Shown here: in pieces, positions 2,457 to 8,461 of the stretch
Layout: the number at the start of each line of letters is the position of its first letter
Numbering within the stretch: the first letter of the stretch is position 1
Source of the DNA: Xanthobacter aminoxidans
Lineage (GTDB): Bacteria > Pseudomonadota > Alphaproteobacteria > Rhizobiales > Xanthobacteraceae
Direction: 5' to 3'
Length of the DNA stretch: 64,000 bases
NCBI RefSeq assembly: GCF_023571765.1
Contig: NZ_JAMJXC010000009.1
Coordinates: 124,001 to 188,000 of the forward strand
Program-made: the position numbers and the translations under genes
Notes under the pieces: generated by a model
Database searches by the model: none
Told to the model about the DNA's origin: nothing
Seen by the model: only the letters and a program-made list of their open reading frames with translations

Positions 2457-2771
2457 CTCTCGCGTCGTTTGCGACGCCGGGTACGCTTCCTGGGTGATCA
2501 AGCGATGCTCCCGCAGAACTTTGGCGCCACAGCGCGATGACTGACCGATACGACATCGGGGGGAGCGGACCAACGGCGGCACCGTTTTTCGCATTCTCCT
2601 GCGGTTTCCCGTGCGCGGCGCCGCATGTTCGGCGGCTTTTGCCGGCGGGTATTGCGGCCCCCACACCCCGGCATTTTTCCCAGATGCTTGCTCAATTGTC
2701 CGGAGCGGCCAGCTTTCCTTCCGAAATCGCTGTTGCGACGTATGGTTATTGAAAAGGGAAGGGAGTCATCA
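2457..2771. other. Divergent intergenic region, no gene seen
   Basis: This is the 315-base gap between the divergent acyl-CoA dehydrogenase and thioredoxin reductase genes. Open frames here lack plausible products. The purine-rich tract AAGGGAAGGGAG at 2753-2764 is the likely ribosome-binding site for trxB. No clear promoter or operator was found by eye. Confidence 0.5.
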
Positions 2772-3770
2772 TTGACGACGGTCCGACAGTCTCGGCTGAT
2801 GATTATCGGCTCTGGCCCCGCCGGGTACACCGCGGGGATTTATGCGGCTCGCGCGGGGCTTGCCCCGTTGCTGGTCACCGGCCTGACCCCCGGAGGCCAG
2901 CTCACCACGACCACAGACGTCGAAAACTATCCCGGCTTCGCTGAGGCGGTCCAGGGCCCGTGGCTGATGGACCAGATGCGCGAGCAGGCCGAGCACGTGG
3001 GGTGCGAGCTGGTCTACGACGCCGTCGCGGAGGTTGATCTGTCGGAGCGGCCTTTCAAGATCCGGACCGAGGCGGGAGATGTGTTCCTGGCCGACACGCT
3101 TGTGCTCGCCATGGGGGCTCAGGCGCGCTGGCTCGGGCTGGAGGCCGAGCGGGCCTTCTCCGGATACGGTGTCTCGGCGTGCGCCACCTGCGACGGCTAT
3201 TTCTTCCGCGGCAAGGAGGTCGTGGTGGTGGGAGGTGGCAACACCGCCGTCGAGGAGGCGCTCTACCTCACGGGACATGCCACGAAAGTCACCGTGGTGC
3301 ACCGGCGGGACAGGTTCCGGGCCGAGCAGGTCCTTCAGGACAGGCTGCTTGCAAACCCCATCGTGAGCGTGCTGTGGAACCATGTGGTCGAGGACATCGT
3401 CGGCACCACCGATCCATCCCCGGCGGTCACCGCCCTCCGTCTGCGAGACCTCGGCACGGGAACGGACCGAGAGATGCCCACGGATGGGCTTTTCGTGGCC
3501 ATCGGCCATGATCCCTCGTCCGCCCTCGTCCGCGGCCAGCTCGACCTCGATGAGGCGGGCTATGTGAAGGTCGCCCCCTGGTCGACCCGGACCTCGGTTC
3601 CCGGCGTCTTTGCCGCCGGCGACATCTGCGATCCGGTGTTCCGTCAGGCGATCACTTCCGCGGGAATGGGGTGCATGGCAGCCATCGAAGCCGGCCGTTT
3701 CCTCTCCGAGCACGCGCCGTCCCTATCCTCGGAGCCCGCCGGCACCCGAGCGCAGGCTGCGGTGGCATGA
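2772..3770 (+). CDS. trxB: Thioredoxin reductase (NADPH)
   Basis: A 332-residue low-molecular-weight flavoprotein disulfide reductase. It has an FAD site GSGPAGYTAG near the N terminus, a redox-active ACATCDG disulfide near residue 140, an NADPH site GGGNTAVEE and a C-terminal FAD-binding GVFAAGD. It transfers electrons from NADPH to thioredoxin or a similar dithiol protein in the cytoplasm. I chose the TTG at 2772 because GGGAAGGGAG ends eight bases before it and because translation then opens like other TrxB proteins (TTVRQSRLMIIGSG). An in-frame ATG at 2742 is the alternative. It converges, 16 bases apart, on the selenoprotein operon, so it could supply reducing power to the UGSC selenoprotein; that link is inference. 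Confidence 0.93.
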   Translation: MTTVRQSRLMIIGSGPAGYTAGIYAARAGLAPLLVTGLTPGGQLTTTTDVENYPGFAEAVQGPWLMDQMREQAEHVGCELVYDAVAEVDLSERPFKIRTEAGDVFLADTLVLAMGAQARWLGLEAERAFSGYGVSACATCDGYFFRGKEVVVVGGGNTAVEEALYLTGHATKVTVVHRRDRFRAEQVLQDRLLANPIVSVLWNHVVEDIVGTTDPSPAVTALRLRDLGTGTDREMPTDGLFVAIGHDPSSALVRGQLDLDEAGYVKVAPWSTRTSVPGVFAAGDICDPVFRQAITSAGMGCMAAIEAGRFLSEHAPSLSSEPAGTRAQAAVA

Positions 3771-3786: not shown

Positions 3787-4764
3787 TCAGGGGAGGGCAG
3801 GTGCCGCGCGCCGGGGTGCCACGGGCACCGTCTGCGGCCTTGATCCGCCCGGCCAGGACGGGATCGCGCACATCTTGATTCCAGCGCCACCCGTGACGAC
3901 GGGGATGATGGCGTAGCCGGCGCGCTCGGCGAGGATGGCCTCGACCTCGACGCGCGTCAGGCCCAGCTCACGCAGCCGCAAGGCAAGTTCCGGCGGGAGC
4001 AGGAGGATATCGACGTCATCGGGGCGTGTCTCGCCCGAGGTGCGTCCCGCGCACTTCGCCGCGTGAAGGACGTCTGCGGGTGGAAACAGAATGTCGCTCG
4101 CGCTGCGGTCCACGCGGGGCAGGACTTCGATGGTCCCGGTCGCCCCCACGACCGTGACGAGGTCCGCGCCATCCGCACCTCCCTGCCGGTCGGCAAGGGC
4201 CGCCAGAATGGCCTCCTGGTTCTCGGCACAGACGAAGGTATATTTCCCCGGCTGGCCGATGGTCGCCATGTCGACGCCGGGTCGGGCCCCGCCCAGCGCG
4301 CCGAGGACGAACTGCAGCGCGCGTCCCAACGTGGCGTTGGCGGCGCAGCCGGGTCCCAGGCCGTTTCCCCCCGGATTGAAGCGAAGTCTCGTGACCTGCG
4401 GTCCCGAGACAATGACGGCGACCGTTGCGGAGCCGGTCGTCGTCGCGATGCCGAGCAGGTTGAACGCCGGTGCGAGCATGGCATCGACCGCCGCTGTCAG
4501 GATGGCCAGCACGCCCGGCCGGCAGCCCGCGAGCACGCTGAGGTAGGCCAGGTTGCCCATGGACGCCTCGCCGAACAGCGGCGGGACAGGGCCGAGGCTG
4601 CGGTCCGGGTCCCGGCCGTCCAGCATGGCTTCGATGGCATCCCGCGTCGGGAGTGCCAGCGGGAGCCCGTCTCCCAGGCCAAGCGGCTCCATGTCCCAAC
4701 GGATGTCGCGCCATGGCTCCGCCGCGTCGAAGACCGGCGCGTGGACTTCGCCGATGCGGATCAT
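3787..4764 (-). CDS. Uncharacterised protein, paralogue of its upstream neighbour (UGSC operon)
   Basis: A 325-residue protein that I cannot assign to a named enzyme. It aligns along its length with the product of 4761-5831: both share GDGLPLALPT-like and GCRP motifs, a VIVSGP stretch, a GRAL...GGARPG block and a C-terminal TGGAG...PS segment. A conserved Cys sits in GCRP. No signal peptide or membrane segment is evident. The ATG start overlaps the stop of the upstream gene (ATGA, 4761-4764), so translation is coupled. Its position third in line behind the selenoprotein gene suggests a subunit or partner of the same redox system. Confidence 0.8.
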   Translation of the reverse strand: MIRIGEVHAPVFDAAEPWRDIRWDMEPLGLGDGLPLALPTRDAIEAMLDGRDPDRSLGPVPPLFGEASMGNLAYLSVLAGCRPGVLAILTAAVDAMLAPAFNLLGIATTTGSATVAVIVSGPQVTRLRFNPGGNGLGPGCAANATLGRALQFVLGALGGARPGVDMATIGQPGKYTFVCAENQEAILAALADRQGGADGADLVTVVGATGTIEVLPRVDRSASDILFPPADVLHAAKCAGRTSGETRPDDVDILLLPPELALRLRELGLTRVEVEAILAERAGYAIIPVVTGGAGIKMCAIPSWPGGSRPQTVPVAPRRAAPALP

Positions 4765-5831
4765 GGGTCGATCGCGGCGGAGCACATCTGGGTGTATCCG
4801 AAGCTGGGAACCCAGGCGGAGTGCTTGCCCGCGCCGCCAGCGACGAGCACGTGGATGTCGGCAGGTGACGGCGCCATGGTGTAGTGATCATCCACCGGGA
4901 AATGCTGGACGTTCTGCTCGTAGTGGCGGCGGTTGTCGGCGCCGATCCGGGAGATGTGCACGCGCGCGCCTTGGTACAGGGCCTGCTGGATCATCTCGAC
5001 GGACCATCCGTCCCGATGGAGGGTCGCGGCGTGCTCCGGCCCCAGCACCACGGCGAAGGGCCCTTTCGCATAGATAGTGTTGGTGCCGGGCTGGCTGATC
5101 GCCTCGGCCAGCATCTTGACGATGCCCTCGGCGCTGTTGCTGCCGTGGTCGTTGATGTTGTGCGGCCCTTCGCTGGCCATGCAGGAAACGAGGCTGGTAT
5201 CCCTCGCAAAGCCCCGCCGCACGCCATAGGGCTCCCAGGGGCTCTGTTCCTCGTTTTCGCCGAAGCAGAACGTGATTTTCGCCGGGGTGCCCTGGGTGGC
5301 GTTGTCCATCTCCCCCGGTCTTGCGCCGCCGATGTTGCGCAGGATGAGATTGAGCGCCCGACCGATCGTCAGATTGGCCCGCCAGCCCTGTCCGAAACAA
5401 TTGCTGCCGCATGCGATGCCGAGCCGCGTCCGGATCGGGCCACTGACGATGATGACGATCCCGCAGGGATGCGTCGTTGCAAGCATACCGTGCAGGTTGA
5501 AGTCAGGTTGCAGCACGGCGCGCAGCGCCGCGAGTACGACAGGGAAGTCCGAGGGGCGGCAACCCGCCATGACAGCGTTCGCTGCCAGGCTCTCCGGTGT
5601 CGGTAGAACCTGCCGGGGAGAAATGGGAGCCCATGGCTCCCGAACCTCCCCGGCAACCGAAAGGAAGCGTTCCACCGCCTTCTCGGTCGGGATGACCAGA
5701 GGAAGGCCGTCGCTCCAGCCCTGCGCGATGGCGAACTCCGTCCATTCCTCATCGCGGAGGTCGAGATCGAAGGTCTGCCGCGCGGCGAGGTCGTCCAACA
5801 TCTTCATGCGGCCCATCCCGGGTTCAGCCAC
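4761..5831 (-). CDS. Uncharacterised protein, partner of UGSC selenoprotein
   Basis: A 356-residue soluble protein of unknown function, paralogous to the 3787-4764 product. It has SDGLPLVIPT near residue 40, AGCRP, GIVIIVSGPI, the block GRALNLILRNIGGARPGE, and TFCFGENEEQSPW, which has a Cys near a run of acidic residues. The GTG at 5831 is chosen because AGGAGG lies nine bases upstream inside the end of the selenoprotein frame, and the two frames overlap by eight bases. The tight overlap is strong evidence for co-expression with the selenoprotein and independently supports the UGSC frame extending through its TGA. The function is not known to me. Confidence 0.82.
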   Translation of the reverse strand: MAEPGMGRMKMLDDLAARQTFDLDLRDEEWTEFAIAQGWSDGLPLVIPTEKAVERFLSVAGEVREPWAPISPRQVLPTPESLAANAVMAGCRPSDFPVVLAALRAVLQPDFNLHGMLATTHPCGIVIIVSGPIRTRLGIACGSNCFGQGWRANLTIGRALNLILRNIGGARPGEMDNATQGTPAKITFCFGENEEQSPWEPYGVRRGFARDTSLVSCMASEGPHNINDHGSNSAEGIVKMLAEAISQPGTNTIYAKGPFAVVLGPEHAATLHRDGWSVEMIQQALYQGARVHISRIGADNRRHYEQNVQHFPVDDHYTMAPSPADIHVLVAGGAGKHSAWVPSFGYTQMCSAAIDP

Positions 5832-6360
5832 GGCCGATCTCCTCCTTGAGCCTGCCGAACGCCGTATCGATGCGCTCGGACAGCTCGTCCGGACTGAGCC
5901 CGCCCACCGGATGCCGGACCACAAGCAAGCGGGGTTCGACCTTGCGGGCCTTGGCCTGAGCCATCACGAGGCCACGGAACGTCTCGGTCACGATGACCCA
6001 GCTGCGCACGCCCCGTTTCTCAAGTTCTACGCTGTCGTGGAAACTCCACGATGAGCAGGAGCCTCAATCGCCGAGGGCGACCAGCGCCATCCTGTACTTC
6101 TGGGCGACCGCATCGATCATCGCGGAGGTGGCCGCCACGCTGGGGCCGGGCTTGAGGACGAGATCCACATTGTCGACGGGCCGAAGCTCGGCGAGGCGGT
6201 CCCGGAGGCCAAGGAGCAGTTCCTGGCTGTTGGGCTTGCCGTTGCTGAAGAGGGCGATGGGCGAGGATGTCCAGTCCGACAGCTCGGCCGTATCCTTCGC
6301 CACCTCGCCGCGATTGTGCGTCGCGGGCGGGAGAGCATAGCTGGGATTCACGATGCGCAT
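5824..6360 (-). CDS. UGSC-family selenoprotein (in-frame TGA read as selenocysteine)
   Basis: The 178-residue frame is interrupted only by a TGA at 6064-6066, which falls at residue 99. Reading it as selenocysteine gives ALGDUGSCSSWSF, the signature U-G-S-C of a selenoprotein family known mainly from sequence surveys. Cys102 could form a selenenylsulfide with Sec99. The ATG at 6360 has AGGAGA seven bases upstream. The second half, with VIVTETF and SPDELSERI stretches, stays open to 5824, where it overlaps the next gene. A hairpin follows the TGA, and selC and selB lie directly upstream on the same strand. The motif resembles the UGTC site of glycine reductase GrdB as I recall it, but the reaction here is unknown. 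A gene finder that stops at TGA would split it in two. Confidence 0.93.
6035..6051 (-). promoter_or_regulatory. Bacterial SECIS-like hairpin after the Sec codon
   Basis: On the coding strand the sequence TCGTGG-AGTTT-CCACGA forms a perfect 6-bp stem with a five-base loop containing GU. It starts 12 bases after the in-frame TGA of the selenoprotein gene. Bacterial SECIS elements lie inside the coding region just downstream of UGA, and SelB contacts G and U in a small apical loop. Position and shape fit. The exact contacts with this SelB are inferred. Confidence 0.75.
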
Positions 6361-6433: not shown

Positions 6434-6529
6434 TGGCGGAGGAGAATGGGAGTCGAACCCACCCAGGACCGCCATGCGGCCCTGCCCGGATTTGAAGTCC
6501 GGACACCCCACCGGGGGCGACTCTCCTCC
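6434..6529 (-). tRNA. selC: tRNA-Sec (anticodon TCA)
   Basis: This 96-base gene includes an encoded 3' GCCA. It has an 8-bp acceptor stem (GGAGGAGA with TCTCCTCC), the long acceptor/T domain typical of selenocysteine tRNA, and a loop CTTCAAA carrying the TCA anticodon (complement at 6493-6495). A long variable arm (GGGCCGC-ATG-GCGGTCC) and a TTCGACT T loop are also present. It decodes UGA with selenocysteine when delivered by SelB. It lies 15 bases after selB and 73 bases before the UGSC selenoprotein gene on the same strand, so one transcript could carry all three. Confidence 0.97.
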
Positions 6530-6544
6530 CTGCAACGGTCAGGC

Positions 6545-8461
6545 TCATGAGCCCGCCCCCGCGAACAACGTGCATGAATCTCTCAGCGCTCGTCGGCTAT
6601 CGCCGGAACGTGCCGTGAAGCGCTTGCGATCGAACAATTCGAGCACCGCGACCGCAAGATTCCGCCCCACCCCGACGGTGTCGCGGAACTCGGCAACCGT
6701 GAAACCCTCCCCGCGATGGGAAAGGCTGACCGCGGCCTCGGCCATCCGCACCAGCGTCGCGCGCGGCAGAAAATGGTCCGGAGCAGCCTCGACCAGAACG
6801 CCCGCCCGGGCCATCCGCTTGAAGACCTGCCGAACCTGAGCCTCATGGAGGCCGGTGGTGCGCGCGATGTCGGCAAGCCGCGCTGGAACGGGCTCGATCT
6901 CCAGCAAATGGCAGGTCTTTGACCAGATCTTGCTGTCCGTCTCCGAAAGGCCGGTGGAATGATGCGGCAAACGCACCTCCCCGCGGTCGACGAGGACATG
7001 TCCTTCGACCGACCAGGCGCGCAGGAGAGACAGCAGGGCGCTCCGGGAAAGCGGCTCACGCAGACCTCGCCGCAGGCCATCCAGGCTCAGTCCGCTTTTC
7101 GTCGGTTCGAGAGCATGGAAGGCGTGCAACTGTGCGAGCACTGCCGCGCGAAGAATGGCGTCTGCTGCGGGAGCGATGGCAAAGGTCCGCCCGTCGGCTT
7201 CCAGCACCGCGAGGTCCGCGATCCGTGCGGCGTCCTGAGCCTCCTCGATCGGCAGGTCCCGGTCCTCGGCGAACGCCGACAGATCGACGAGGCCCGGGGC
7301 GATCCGCGACAGTGCGGCCAGCGCCTCCGCCTCATCGGCCGGGCGCATCGCGGCGAGCTGCGCAAGGCGCCGGATGGTTCGGCGGCCGCGCCGCGGCGCC
7401 CGGGGATCGACGATCGTGCCACCGCCGATGGTCCGGGAGCAGCCGGCATCGCGCAGGACGATATGGTCCCCATGGCGCAGCGGCGCCGGCCGATCCAGCA
7501 CGACCTGGACCAGTCCGGATTCGCCAGCGCGCAGTTCATCACGCTCGATCGGCACCAGATGCCCCGGGATCTGGGCCGCGCCGTGATGCGCCAGCACCGG
7601 GGACCAGGCCTTGATCATCAGGCCCGGATGGTGGGCAAGGCAAAGCTCGATGTCTGCGCGATCACTGGTCCATGCCGCCGGTGGGGCCAGCACCCAATCT
7701 CCGCGCTCGATGGCGTCCTTGCGAATTCGGCGGCCTGTGAGATTGAGGGCGCAGCGCTCGCCGGGGCCGGCGACGGGCACCGGCCGTCCGGCCATCTGGA
7801 TCGAGCGCACGCGCGCTTCGAGACCGGAGGCAAGGCAAACCTCATCCCCGACCCGGACGTTGCCCGAAGCCACGAAGCCGCTGACCACCGTTCCGATACC
7901 GGCGAGGGTGAAGCTCCGGTCGACGGAAAACCGCAGCCGCCGGTCCGAACGTGCATCGCGCGACGGCGCCGCAAGCCGGCCCAATGCCGCCCGCAGGTCT
8001 GTCAGCCCTTCTCCGGTCTCGACCGATACCGGCACGATCTCCATTTGCGGACTGAAGGATGCCTGGAGGCTGCGGATCTCTTCGGTGACCTGCTGACGGC
8101 GTGTGGCGTCTGCAAGATCCGCCTTGGTCAGGGCGAATACGCCGCGCCGGACGCCCAGGAAGCGCATGATATCGAAATGCTCACGCGTCTGCGGCATGAT
8201 TCCGTCATCGACGGCGACTACCAACAGGACGCTGTCGATGCCGCACGCCCCCGCGATCATCGTATGCACAAGGCGCTCGTGACCCGGCACGTCGACGAAC
8301 CCGATCGTGCGGCCATCCAGGAAATCCGTGTAGGCGAAGCCGAGATCGATCGTGATCCCGCGCGCCTTCTCTTCCTTGAGCCTGTCGGTATCCACGCCGG
8401 TGAGGGCTCGGACGAGCGCGGTCTTCCCGTGATCGATGTGGCCTGCAAGTCCGATGATCAT
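6545..8461 (-). CDS. selB: Selenocysteine-specific elongation factor SelB
   Basis: A 638-residue translational GTPase that brings selenocysteinyl-tRNA to UGA codons marked by a SECIS hairpin. The N-terminal G domain shows GHIDHGKT (G1), DVPGHE (G3) and TKAD (G4). EF-Tu-like beta-barrel domains follow, then a long C-terminal region of winged-helix character (LADIARTTGLHEAQVRQVFK and FRDTVGVGR stretches) that binds the SECIS RNA. The ATG at 8461 gives an opening MIIGLAGHIDHGKT typical of the family; frame upstream of it is non-conserved. The gene precedes selC. selA and selD are not in this window and must lie elsewhere. Confidence 0.96.
   Translation of the reverse strand: MIIGLAGHIDHGKTALVRALTGVDTDRLKEEKARGITIDLGFAYTDFLDGRTIGFVDVPGHERLVHTMIAGACGIDSVLLVVAVDDGIMPQTREHFDIMRFLGVRRGVFALTKADLADATRRQQVTEEIRSLQASFSPQMEIVPVSVETGEGLTDLRAALGRLAAPSRDARSDRRLRFSVDRSFTLAGIGTVVSGFVASGNVRVGDEVCLASGLEARVRSIQMAGRPVPVAGPGERCALNLTGRRIRKDAIERGDWVLAPPAAWTSDRADIELCLAHHPGLMIKAWSPVLAHHGAAQIPGHLVPIERDELRAGESGLVQVVLDRPAPLRHGDHIVLRDAGCSRTIGGGTIVDPRAPRRGRRTIRRLAQLAAMRPADEAEALAALSRIAPGLVDLSAFAEDRDLPIEEAQDAARIADLAVLEADGRTFAIAPAADAILRAAVLAQLHAFHALEPTKSGLSLDGLRRGLREPLSRSALLSLLRAWSVEGHVLVDRGEVRLPHHSTGLSETDSKIWSKTCHLLEIEPVPARLADIARTTGLHEAQVRQVFKRMARAGVLVEAAPDHFLPRATLVRMAEAAVSLSHRGEGFTVAEFRDTVGVGRNLAVAVLELFDRKRFTARSGDSRRALRDSCTLFAGAGS

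Follow-up and report, generated by a model that had tools for sequence, protein, structure and literature searches.

The UGSC family of selenoproteins was described in 2008 in a GOS survey, and the available parts of that paper count its proteins among the major selenoprotein families of aquatic GOS samples (PMC2398784). No functional study of UGSC was met in the available parts of PMC2398784, PMC13188914, PMC9312934, PMC7539508 and PMC5029168, or in the literature searched, the coverage of which leaves out most subscription journals. As far as the available text of PMC5330540 goes, Photobacterium profundum 3TCK has two Sec operons in one genome, and UAG-coded UGSC selenoproteins of Geodermatophilaceae have already been reported (PMC5330540, citing its reference 56). 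The locus compared here with these systems lies in a stretch of 64,000 nucleotides from Xanthobacter aminoxidans (the window), where a run of genes on the minus strand reads selB, tRNA-Sec, UGSC, U1a and U1b. The selenoprotein itself is an additional member of a family already in print. The best explanation of the whole, which we hold to be very probable, is that of a UGA-decoded UGSC selenoprotein that would form one thioredoxin-dependent reductase with a partner of the Unknown_1 family, the extra selB and tRNA-Sec going with the cassette.

The UGSC gene (5824..6360, minus strand) codes for 178 residues with Sec as residue 99. Its frame starts with ATG at 6360, preceded by AGGAGA, and holds a single in-frame TGA (6064..6066, minus strand), followed by 79 sense codons and a terminal TGA whose last base is 5824. 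The earlier note had described this frame and had read D-U-G-S-C in it as the mark of a UGSC selenoprotein. The frame was confirmed from the sequence, and the family is borne out by the Pfam profile PF24696 (UGSC), which matches residues 13-172 at 107.7 bits against a gathering cut-off of 25. The NCBIfam equivalog profile NF041046 (UGSC_fam) gives 104.1 bits, and because this falls below its cut-off of 125 bits, we read the window protein as a divergent subgroup (DUGSCSSWSFH) of the Pfam family. In an alignment of 27 UGSC sequences, residue 99 (U or C), G100 and C102 are invariant while D98 and S101 are nearly so. A class-wide sample, in which at most eight candidates per genome were scored, gave UGSC at E 1e-8 in 38 of 385 genomes; exactly one in-frame TGA was present in 93 of the 97 matches and none in the other four.

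Were the TGA an ordinary stop, the UGSC protein would be cut short at 98 residues and the downstream frame would be open by chance or belong to a separate gene. At high GC, long chance frames are common, and this speaks for such a reading. Because 63 open frames of at least 80 aa, in six frames, overlap the first 14 kb of the window, open length by itself would be no proof of read-through in this DNA, and it is comparison that supplies the proof. Nine close relatives are 51-61% identical to the window protein over the whole length, the part after the TGA included, which upholds the claim of the earlier note that the second half is genuinely coding. Its proposed comparison with UGSC homologues found them running past the TGA with the downstream codons conserved, none being seen to end before it, and this supports its further claim that standard annotation would truncate the protein. 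It was also right that the AGGAGG and the GTG start (5829-5831) of the next gene, U1a, overlap the 3′ end of UGSC. Natural Cys forms (CGSC in place of UGSC), which count against an ordinary stop, were found in five UGSC domains among the 80 named-record loci, that is, the best 80 of 582 confirmed stretches from a scan of genomes with the Unknown_1 profile. Against an ordinary stop stands also an orthologue from Blastococcus (L169), 49% identical to the window UGSC, with TAG at the Sec site (L169:9702-9704). A tRNA with a CTA anticodon adjoins a SelB match in the same genome (L169, L250); despite its ARAGORN label of Pyl, it is probably a tRNA-Sec(CUA).

The SECIS element of E. coli fdhF has a bulged U17 and G23-U24. 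In the window, the apical stem-loop of the SECIS hairpin (6035..6051, minus strand) has 7 bp and a GUU loop at positions 23-25, counted from the U of UGA. For comparison, 138 hairpins were extracted and 19 were left out for other motifs (e.g., UGSCTPA and USTC), another register or an N run. The 119 kept by the pattern U-G-[SAG]-C-[ST]-[STA]-[WCG] gave 107 distinct hairpins of the main motif, and 52 were aligned for the count of pairs. G23-U24 is invariant in all 107, as is a C at position 17 paired with G31, and the pair 21:27 is G-C in 65, C-G in 42 and broken in none. In the 52 aligned hairpins, 90.9% of the cells are paired compared to 81.7% in shuffles. Their covariation score is 0.255 compared to 0.119 in shuffles, and 0/500 shuffles reach 0.255, which is not to be taken as the true probability as the hairpin rows are related; six slid controls scored at most 0.101. 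The swap at 21:27 tracks the protein at codons +6/+8, Trp going with Val, Ile or Phe (62/65) and Cys with Leu or Met (37/39), which means that an RNA structure ties amino-acid changes in the protein together. When distinct UGSC domains are taken over all motifs, 107 of 120 have AGT or TGT at codon +7; at other places in these domains, the two account for 85 of the 461 AGC, AGT, TGC and TGT codons. The coding sequence itself seems to account for part of the stem pairing, because four of six Cys-form homologues keep six or seven of the eight stem pairs (7, 6, 7, 7, 3 and 4 in the six; mean 7.4 in 119 Sec forms). GU at 23-24, as read from the sequences, is kept in none of the six.

The strength of the fold in the single sequence is on the side of an ordinary stop: the energy of the window hairpin is not unusual (z −1.27, with 23 of 200 shuffles as good), and the downstream fold is at least as stable for 41% of the 1562 TGAs of the window. 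This energy was set aside as uninformative evidence for a SECIS. A SECIS-type hairpin nevertheless stands just after the Sec codon, as in bacterial selenoproteins, and is conserved through base changes, and this covariation argues against a stop, as do the selB and tRNA-Sec that adjoin the gene. Chance read-through is ruled out by the whole-length conservation, the hairpin covariation and the TAG orthologue, and we give the ordinary-stop reading a negligible probability. Comparison shows the frame 6360-5824 on the minus strand to be a UGSC-family selenoprotein gene, with a UGA predicted to be decoded as Sec and a bacterial SECIS hairpin predicted within the gene.

A few variants may be mentioned here. 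A subgroup (L007, L008, L010, L013) has U-S-T-C replacing U-G-S-C, with another hairpin register and the loop GGUC. The SelB match of Blastococcus (L250 stretch) contains one internal TAG too. MAG records titled Bordetella parapertussis (L182, L210, L235, L237) carry UGSC-Unknown_1 genes and look like mislabelled environmental MAGs.

The gene following UGSC, U1a (4761..5831, minus strand), was assigned to Unknown_1 by the family profile and has no match in Pfam or NCBIfam. Its stop is overlapped by the ATG of U1b (3787..4764, minus strand), a second paralogue matched by the profile at 241 bits over positions 8-261. We take this family to be the Unknown_1 of the 2008 paper, as far as the available text describes it (PMC2398784). 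Seven of the 10 closest loci (L162, L163, L164, L166, L167, L168, L170) likewise have a U1b-type gene immediately next. UGSC lies within 1.5 kb of Unknown_1 and on the same strand in 76 of the best 80 loci, fusions included, with UGSC first in 66 and Unknown_1 first in 10. As for the four loci in which UGSC was not found, two (L174, L227) begin at the edge of a contig, L173 stops close to such an edge, and the 21 kb of L208 hold Unknown_1 but no UGSC, which counts against a joint enzyme. Among the whole-genome UGSC loci that were kept, Unknown_1 is present within 1.5 kb and on the same strand in 40 of 41; L072 has none within its short flank. Fusions of TGA-form UGSC to Unknown_1 number 26, in 22 loci, if the count is limited to those with no stop other than the Sec codon (the Cys row L191 contains a stop). 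As the two genes lie side by side or are fused at almost every locus examined, it is strongly indicated that UGSC and Unknown_1 work as one enzyme. A second UGSC gene of the X. aminoxidans genome (G000:C77:118366-118788), about 11 kb away, reads C-U-G-S-C and is fused in one frame to an Unknown_1 domain. Several Unknown_1 proteins begin with a domain that contains CPTC and a TVPT turn. Ten of these N-terminal domains were combined into a profile, which matched thioredoxins among solved-structure sequences at E 4.1e-7, while single Unknown_1 proteins matched Pfam thioredoxin-like families only below the cut-offs, in two of six tested.

The available text of PMC2398784 calls UGSC likely Trx-like, and the UxxC motif agrees with a thioredoxin-like protein. 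The model of a UGSC-Unknown_1 fusion from a Smithella record (L171; pLDDT 94.0, pTM 0.94) points elsewhere, since its UGSC part is predicted to alternate between helices and five core strands, and the Sec site falls after strand 3, just ahead of the helix that follows. Among the 50 structural matches listed for this part, Rossmann-like, periplasmic-binding and receiver types prevail, the best reaching Z 11.5 over 129 residues, and they would reflect a common arrangement, not kinship; no thioredoxin is among the 50, which does not exclude that fold. The thioredoxin-like matches sit, moreover, in the separate domain fused to the partner, and the near-constant pairing with Unknown_1 also argues against a thioredoxin-like UGSC. 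We consider a thioredoxin-like UGSC unlikely and favor the predicted Rossmann-like fold. The UGSC profile found no credible relative among solved-structure sequences (best E 0.2), and the Unknown_1 profile found no match there up to E 10. The model of U1a (pLDDT 89.5, pTM 0.89) pointed to no clear solved fold, its best VIA match having a Z of 5.0. The best Foldseek match was a class I fumarase, and kinship to class I fumarases was not accepted as this match is weak (E 1e-3, TM 0.30).

UGSC and Unknown_1 would most likely make up a two-subunit, thioredoxin-recharged reductase with a Sec-x-x-Cys site and chemistry like that of the proline and glycine reductases. In the proposed mechanism, the Sec selenolate would sit at a helix N-terminus of the Rossmann-like subunit and attack a substrate held together with Unknown_1, and the Cys three residues on would resolve the Sec intermediate to give a selenenyl-sulphide. 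Recharging of the Sec site would then fall to thioredoxin, which some genomes have fused to Unknown_1, and to thioredoxin reductase. The chemistry may resemble that of D-proline/glycine reductase selenoprotein B. A thioredoxin reductase open frame (2625..3770, plus strand; TIGR01292 388.8 bits against a cut-off of 343.45) is a possible electron source. The second UGSC gene (L003:9191-10900) also has a thioredoxin-reductase-like gene beside it (212.7 bits, under the cut-off of 343), and a sulphonate-type ABC transporter is found on its other side. Neighboring genes give no more than a hint of the substrate, a small imported organic acid or a sulphonate-like compound: parts of sulphonate-type ABC transporters (under curated cut-offs) and acyl-CoA enzymes lie near both UGSC loci. 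A scan of 86 of 100 open frames at eight of the ten closest loci gave no broadly recurring neighbor family as a shared substrate hint, the commonest match being to 3 of the 86 proteins (among the best 25 of 71 families). Given a near-constant partner in Unknown_1, a thioredoxin fused to some of its members and a thioredoxin reductase close by, the function of UGSC lends itself to a direct test in which two purified proteins are combined with a thioredoxin system.

The earlier reading of UGSC is supported, but it overlooked the partner role of the next gene as well as the upstream tRNA-Sec and selB and their status as a second set. In the X. aminoxidans genome, selA and selD each stand out once, and selB and tRNA-Sec twice; extra RF01852 matches near 50 bits, which occur in every genome searched, were taken as other tRNAs. 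Among the 43 UGSC genomes, the TGA form is present in 39, with SelB (E 1e-60) in 37 and tRNA-Sec (E 1e-11) in 36 of these 39; SelB and tRNA-Sec were found in one of the four genomes with only stop-free UGSC. As exceptions that weigh against the best explanation, searches for SelB and tRNA-Sec found neither in G027 (99% complete) and G071 (77%), both with TGA-form UGSC, and no tRNA-Sec match was found in the UGSC genome G426. In G027, the assembly may have a gap, the machinery may have been lost recently or the gene may be dead. The G027 gene (L008, L153) is a TGA-form U-S-T-C. In 7 of the 43 genomes (G000, G030, G117, G151, G183, G247, G401), a UGSC gene lies no farther than about 5 kb from selB or tRNA-Sec, and among the 80 named-record loci only L219 has both tRNA-Sec and selB in the fetched stretch.

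In the window, tRNA-Sec (6434..6529, minus strand; anticodon UCA, found by ARAGORN, Rfam RF01852 81 bits) and selB, coding for the Sec-specific elongation factor (6545..8461, minus strand; TIGR00475 368.7 bits against a cut-off of 242.25), are each one of two in the genome. The other tRNA-Sec (G000:C9:128580-128671) and the other SelB (G000:C9:128750-130630) are close together with selA on contig C9, and a frame beside this set is read, from its sequence, as a Sec-form formate dehydrogenase. Two SelB together with two tRNA-Sec were found in X. aminoxidans (G000) only, among the 43 UGSC genomes. In 13 same-genus genomes, UGSC was found in none and at most one SelB each was over the cut-off. A recent duplication of the host selB is ruled out, as the window SelB (SelB2) shares 48% identity with the C9 copy and no more than 49%, over full length, with any of the SelBs listed from 391 family genomes. 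The idea that Vineibacter/Reyranella-like donors passed on the whole as one package is not supported: their SelBs are 44-46% identical, and neither tRNA-Sec nor selB is present in the fetched flanks (some short) of L162-L168, L170 and L189, which have UGA window-type UGSC, or of L169.

It is a real possibility, though short of probable, that the extra selB and tRNA-Sec are a redundant or decaying duplicate of no special role and that the C9 set decodes everything. One set can serve UGSC, as the thresholds used gave a single SelB in 37 and a single tRNA-Sec in 36 of the 43 UGSC genomes, and the branch of SelB2 in the SelB tree is long (1.43). Decay, however, agrees poorly with a selB that is full length with its domains, and with two tRNA-Sec that share 82 of 96 bases and both fold intact, with a compensatory acceptor pair. 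Second pairs also recur: two SelBs (match E 1e-95) are present in 5 of 114 family genomes with SelB (G000, G488, G671, G675, G698), and in the latter four a lower-scoring selB is followed by its own tRNA-Sec (L312, L314, L315, L316). Two of these genomes, G488 and G698 (stretches L315, L316), have a PrdB-like Sec gene no more than about 7 kb away. No UGSC was found in any of the six stretches taken, and L312 and L314 gave neither a UGSC nor a PrdB-like gene. A further point against redundancy comes from the Acetobacteraceae records G451 and G454, which have window-type UGSC loci (L168, L189) and two SelBs each. In a tree of N-terminal domains, one SelB from each joins the window SelB (97/88), with the limits that the window branch is long and that a contig end truncates the G454 gene; the stretches taken around these SelBs hold no UGSC.

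We read these accessory selB-selC pairs as accompanying selenoprotein cassettes, and the extra selB and tRNA-Sec of the window most likely arrived with the cassette and would raise or secure decoding capacity. A decoding set dedicated to UGSC is possible from the arrangement of the genes, but the idea is weakened because single-set organisms carry the same hairpin type. The same C17-G31 pair and single SelB counts weaken the lack of a bulged U17 as the mark of a special SelB2 hairpin. We find it quite improbable that the locus is a portable selenoenzyme cassette with SelB2 and a second tRNA-Sec partly dedicated and tuned to a UGSC hairpin lacking the bulged U17, beside the C9 set, with UGSC and Unknown_1 as a new two-subunit selenium reductase. 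The second set in any case offers a natural setting for asking whether two sets in the same cell can divide Sec decoding between them, a question that matters for deliberate selenoprotein production. In the literature searched, we met no earlier report of an accessory selB/tRNA-Sec adjoining UGSC, of counts of the UGSC/Unknown_1 pairing, of hairpin-linked amino-acid covariation in UGSC or of a non-thioredoxin model of UGSC.

Among the known systems, D-proline/glycine reductase selenoprotein B (GRDB, PF07355; PrdB-like) may share with UGSC a Sec-x-x-Cys at the same place, to judge by a weak profile-profile alignment (hhalign, P 3.5e-4, probability 37%), in which Sec falls on Sec and Cys on Cys. 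UGSC differs in that the window protein has no match to PF07355 up to E 1 and that its partner Unknown_1 shows no kinship to the same PrdB-like set (P 0.44). PF07355 genes are present in 24 of the 32 UGSC genomes searched out of 43, directly beside UGSC in G401, with none in X. aminoxidans. Photobacterium profundum 3TCK, according to the available text of PMC5330540, similarly has two non-identical tRNA-Sec genes in separate operons, whereas the second set of the window is without selA and is joined to one selenoprotein cassette. The UAG-coded UGSC of Geodermatophilaceae, described in the same available text (PMC5330540), is an orthologous protein with Sec at the same position, as seen in L169; the Sec codon is UAG with a CTA anticodon there and UGA with UCA in the window. 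With the UGSC family itself (PF24696; NF041046; PMC2398784, in its available parts), the window gene shares the UGSC motif, the whole-length profile match, the in-gene hairpin and, in relatives, the fusion to the partner domain. Compared to the family as described there, the window gene stands directly behind selB and tRNA-Sec, has two Unknown_1 genes as separate proteins and belongs to a subgroup under the NCBIfam cut-off.
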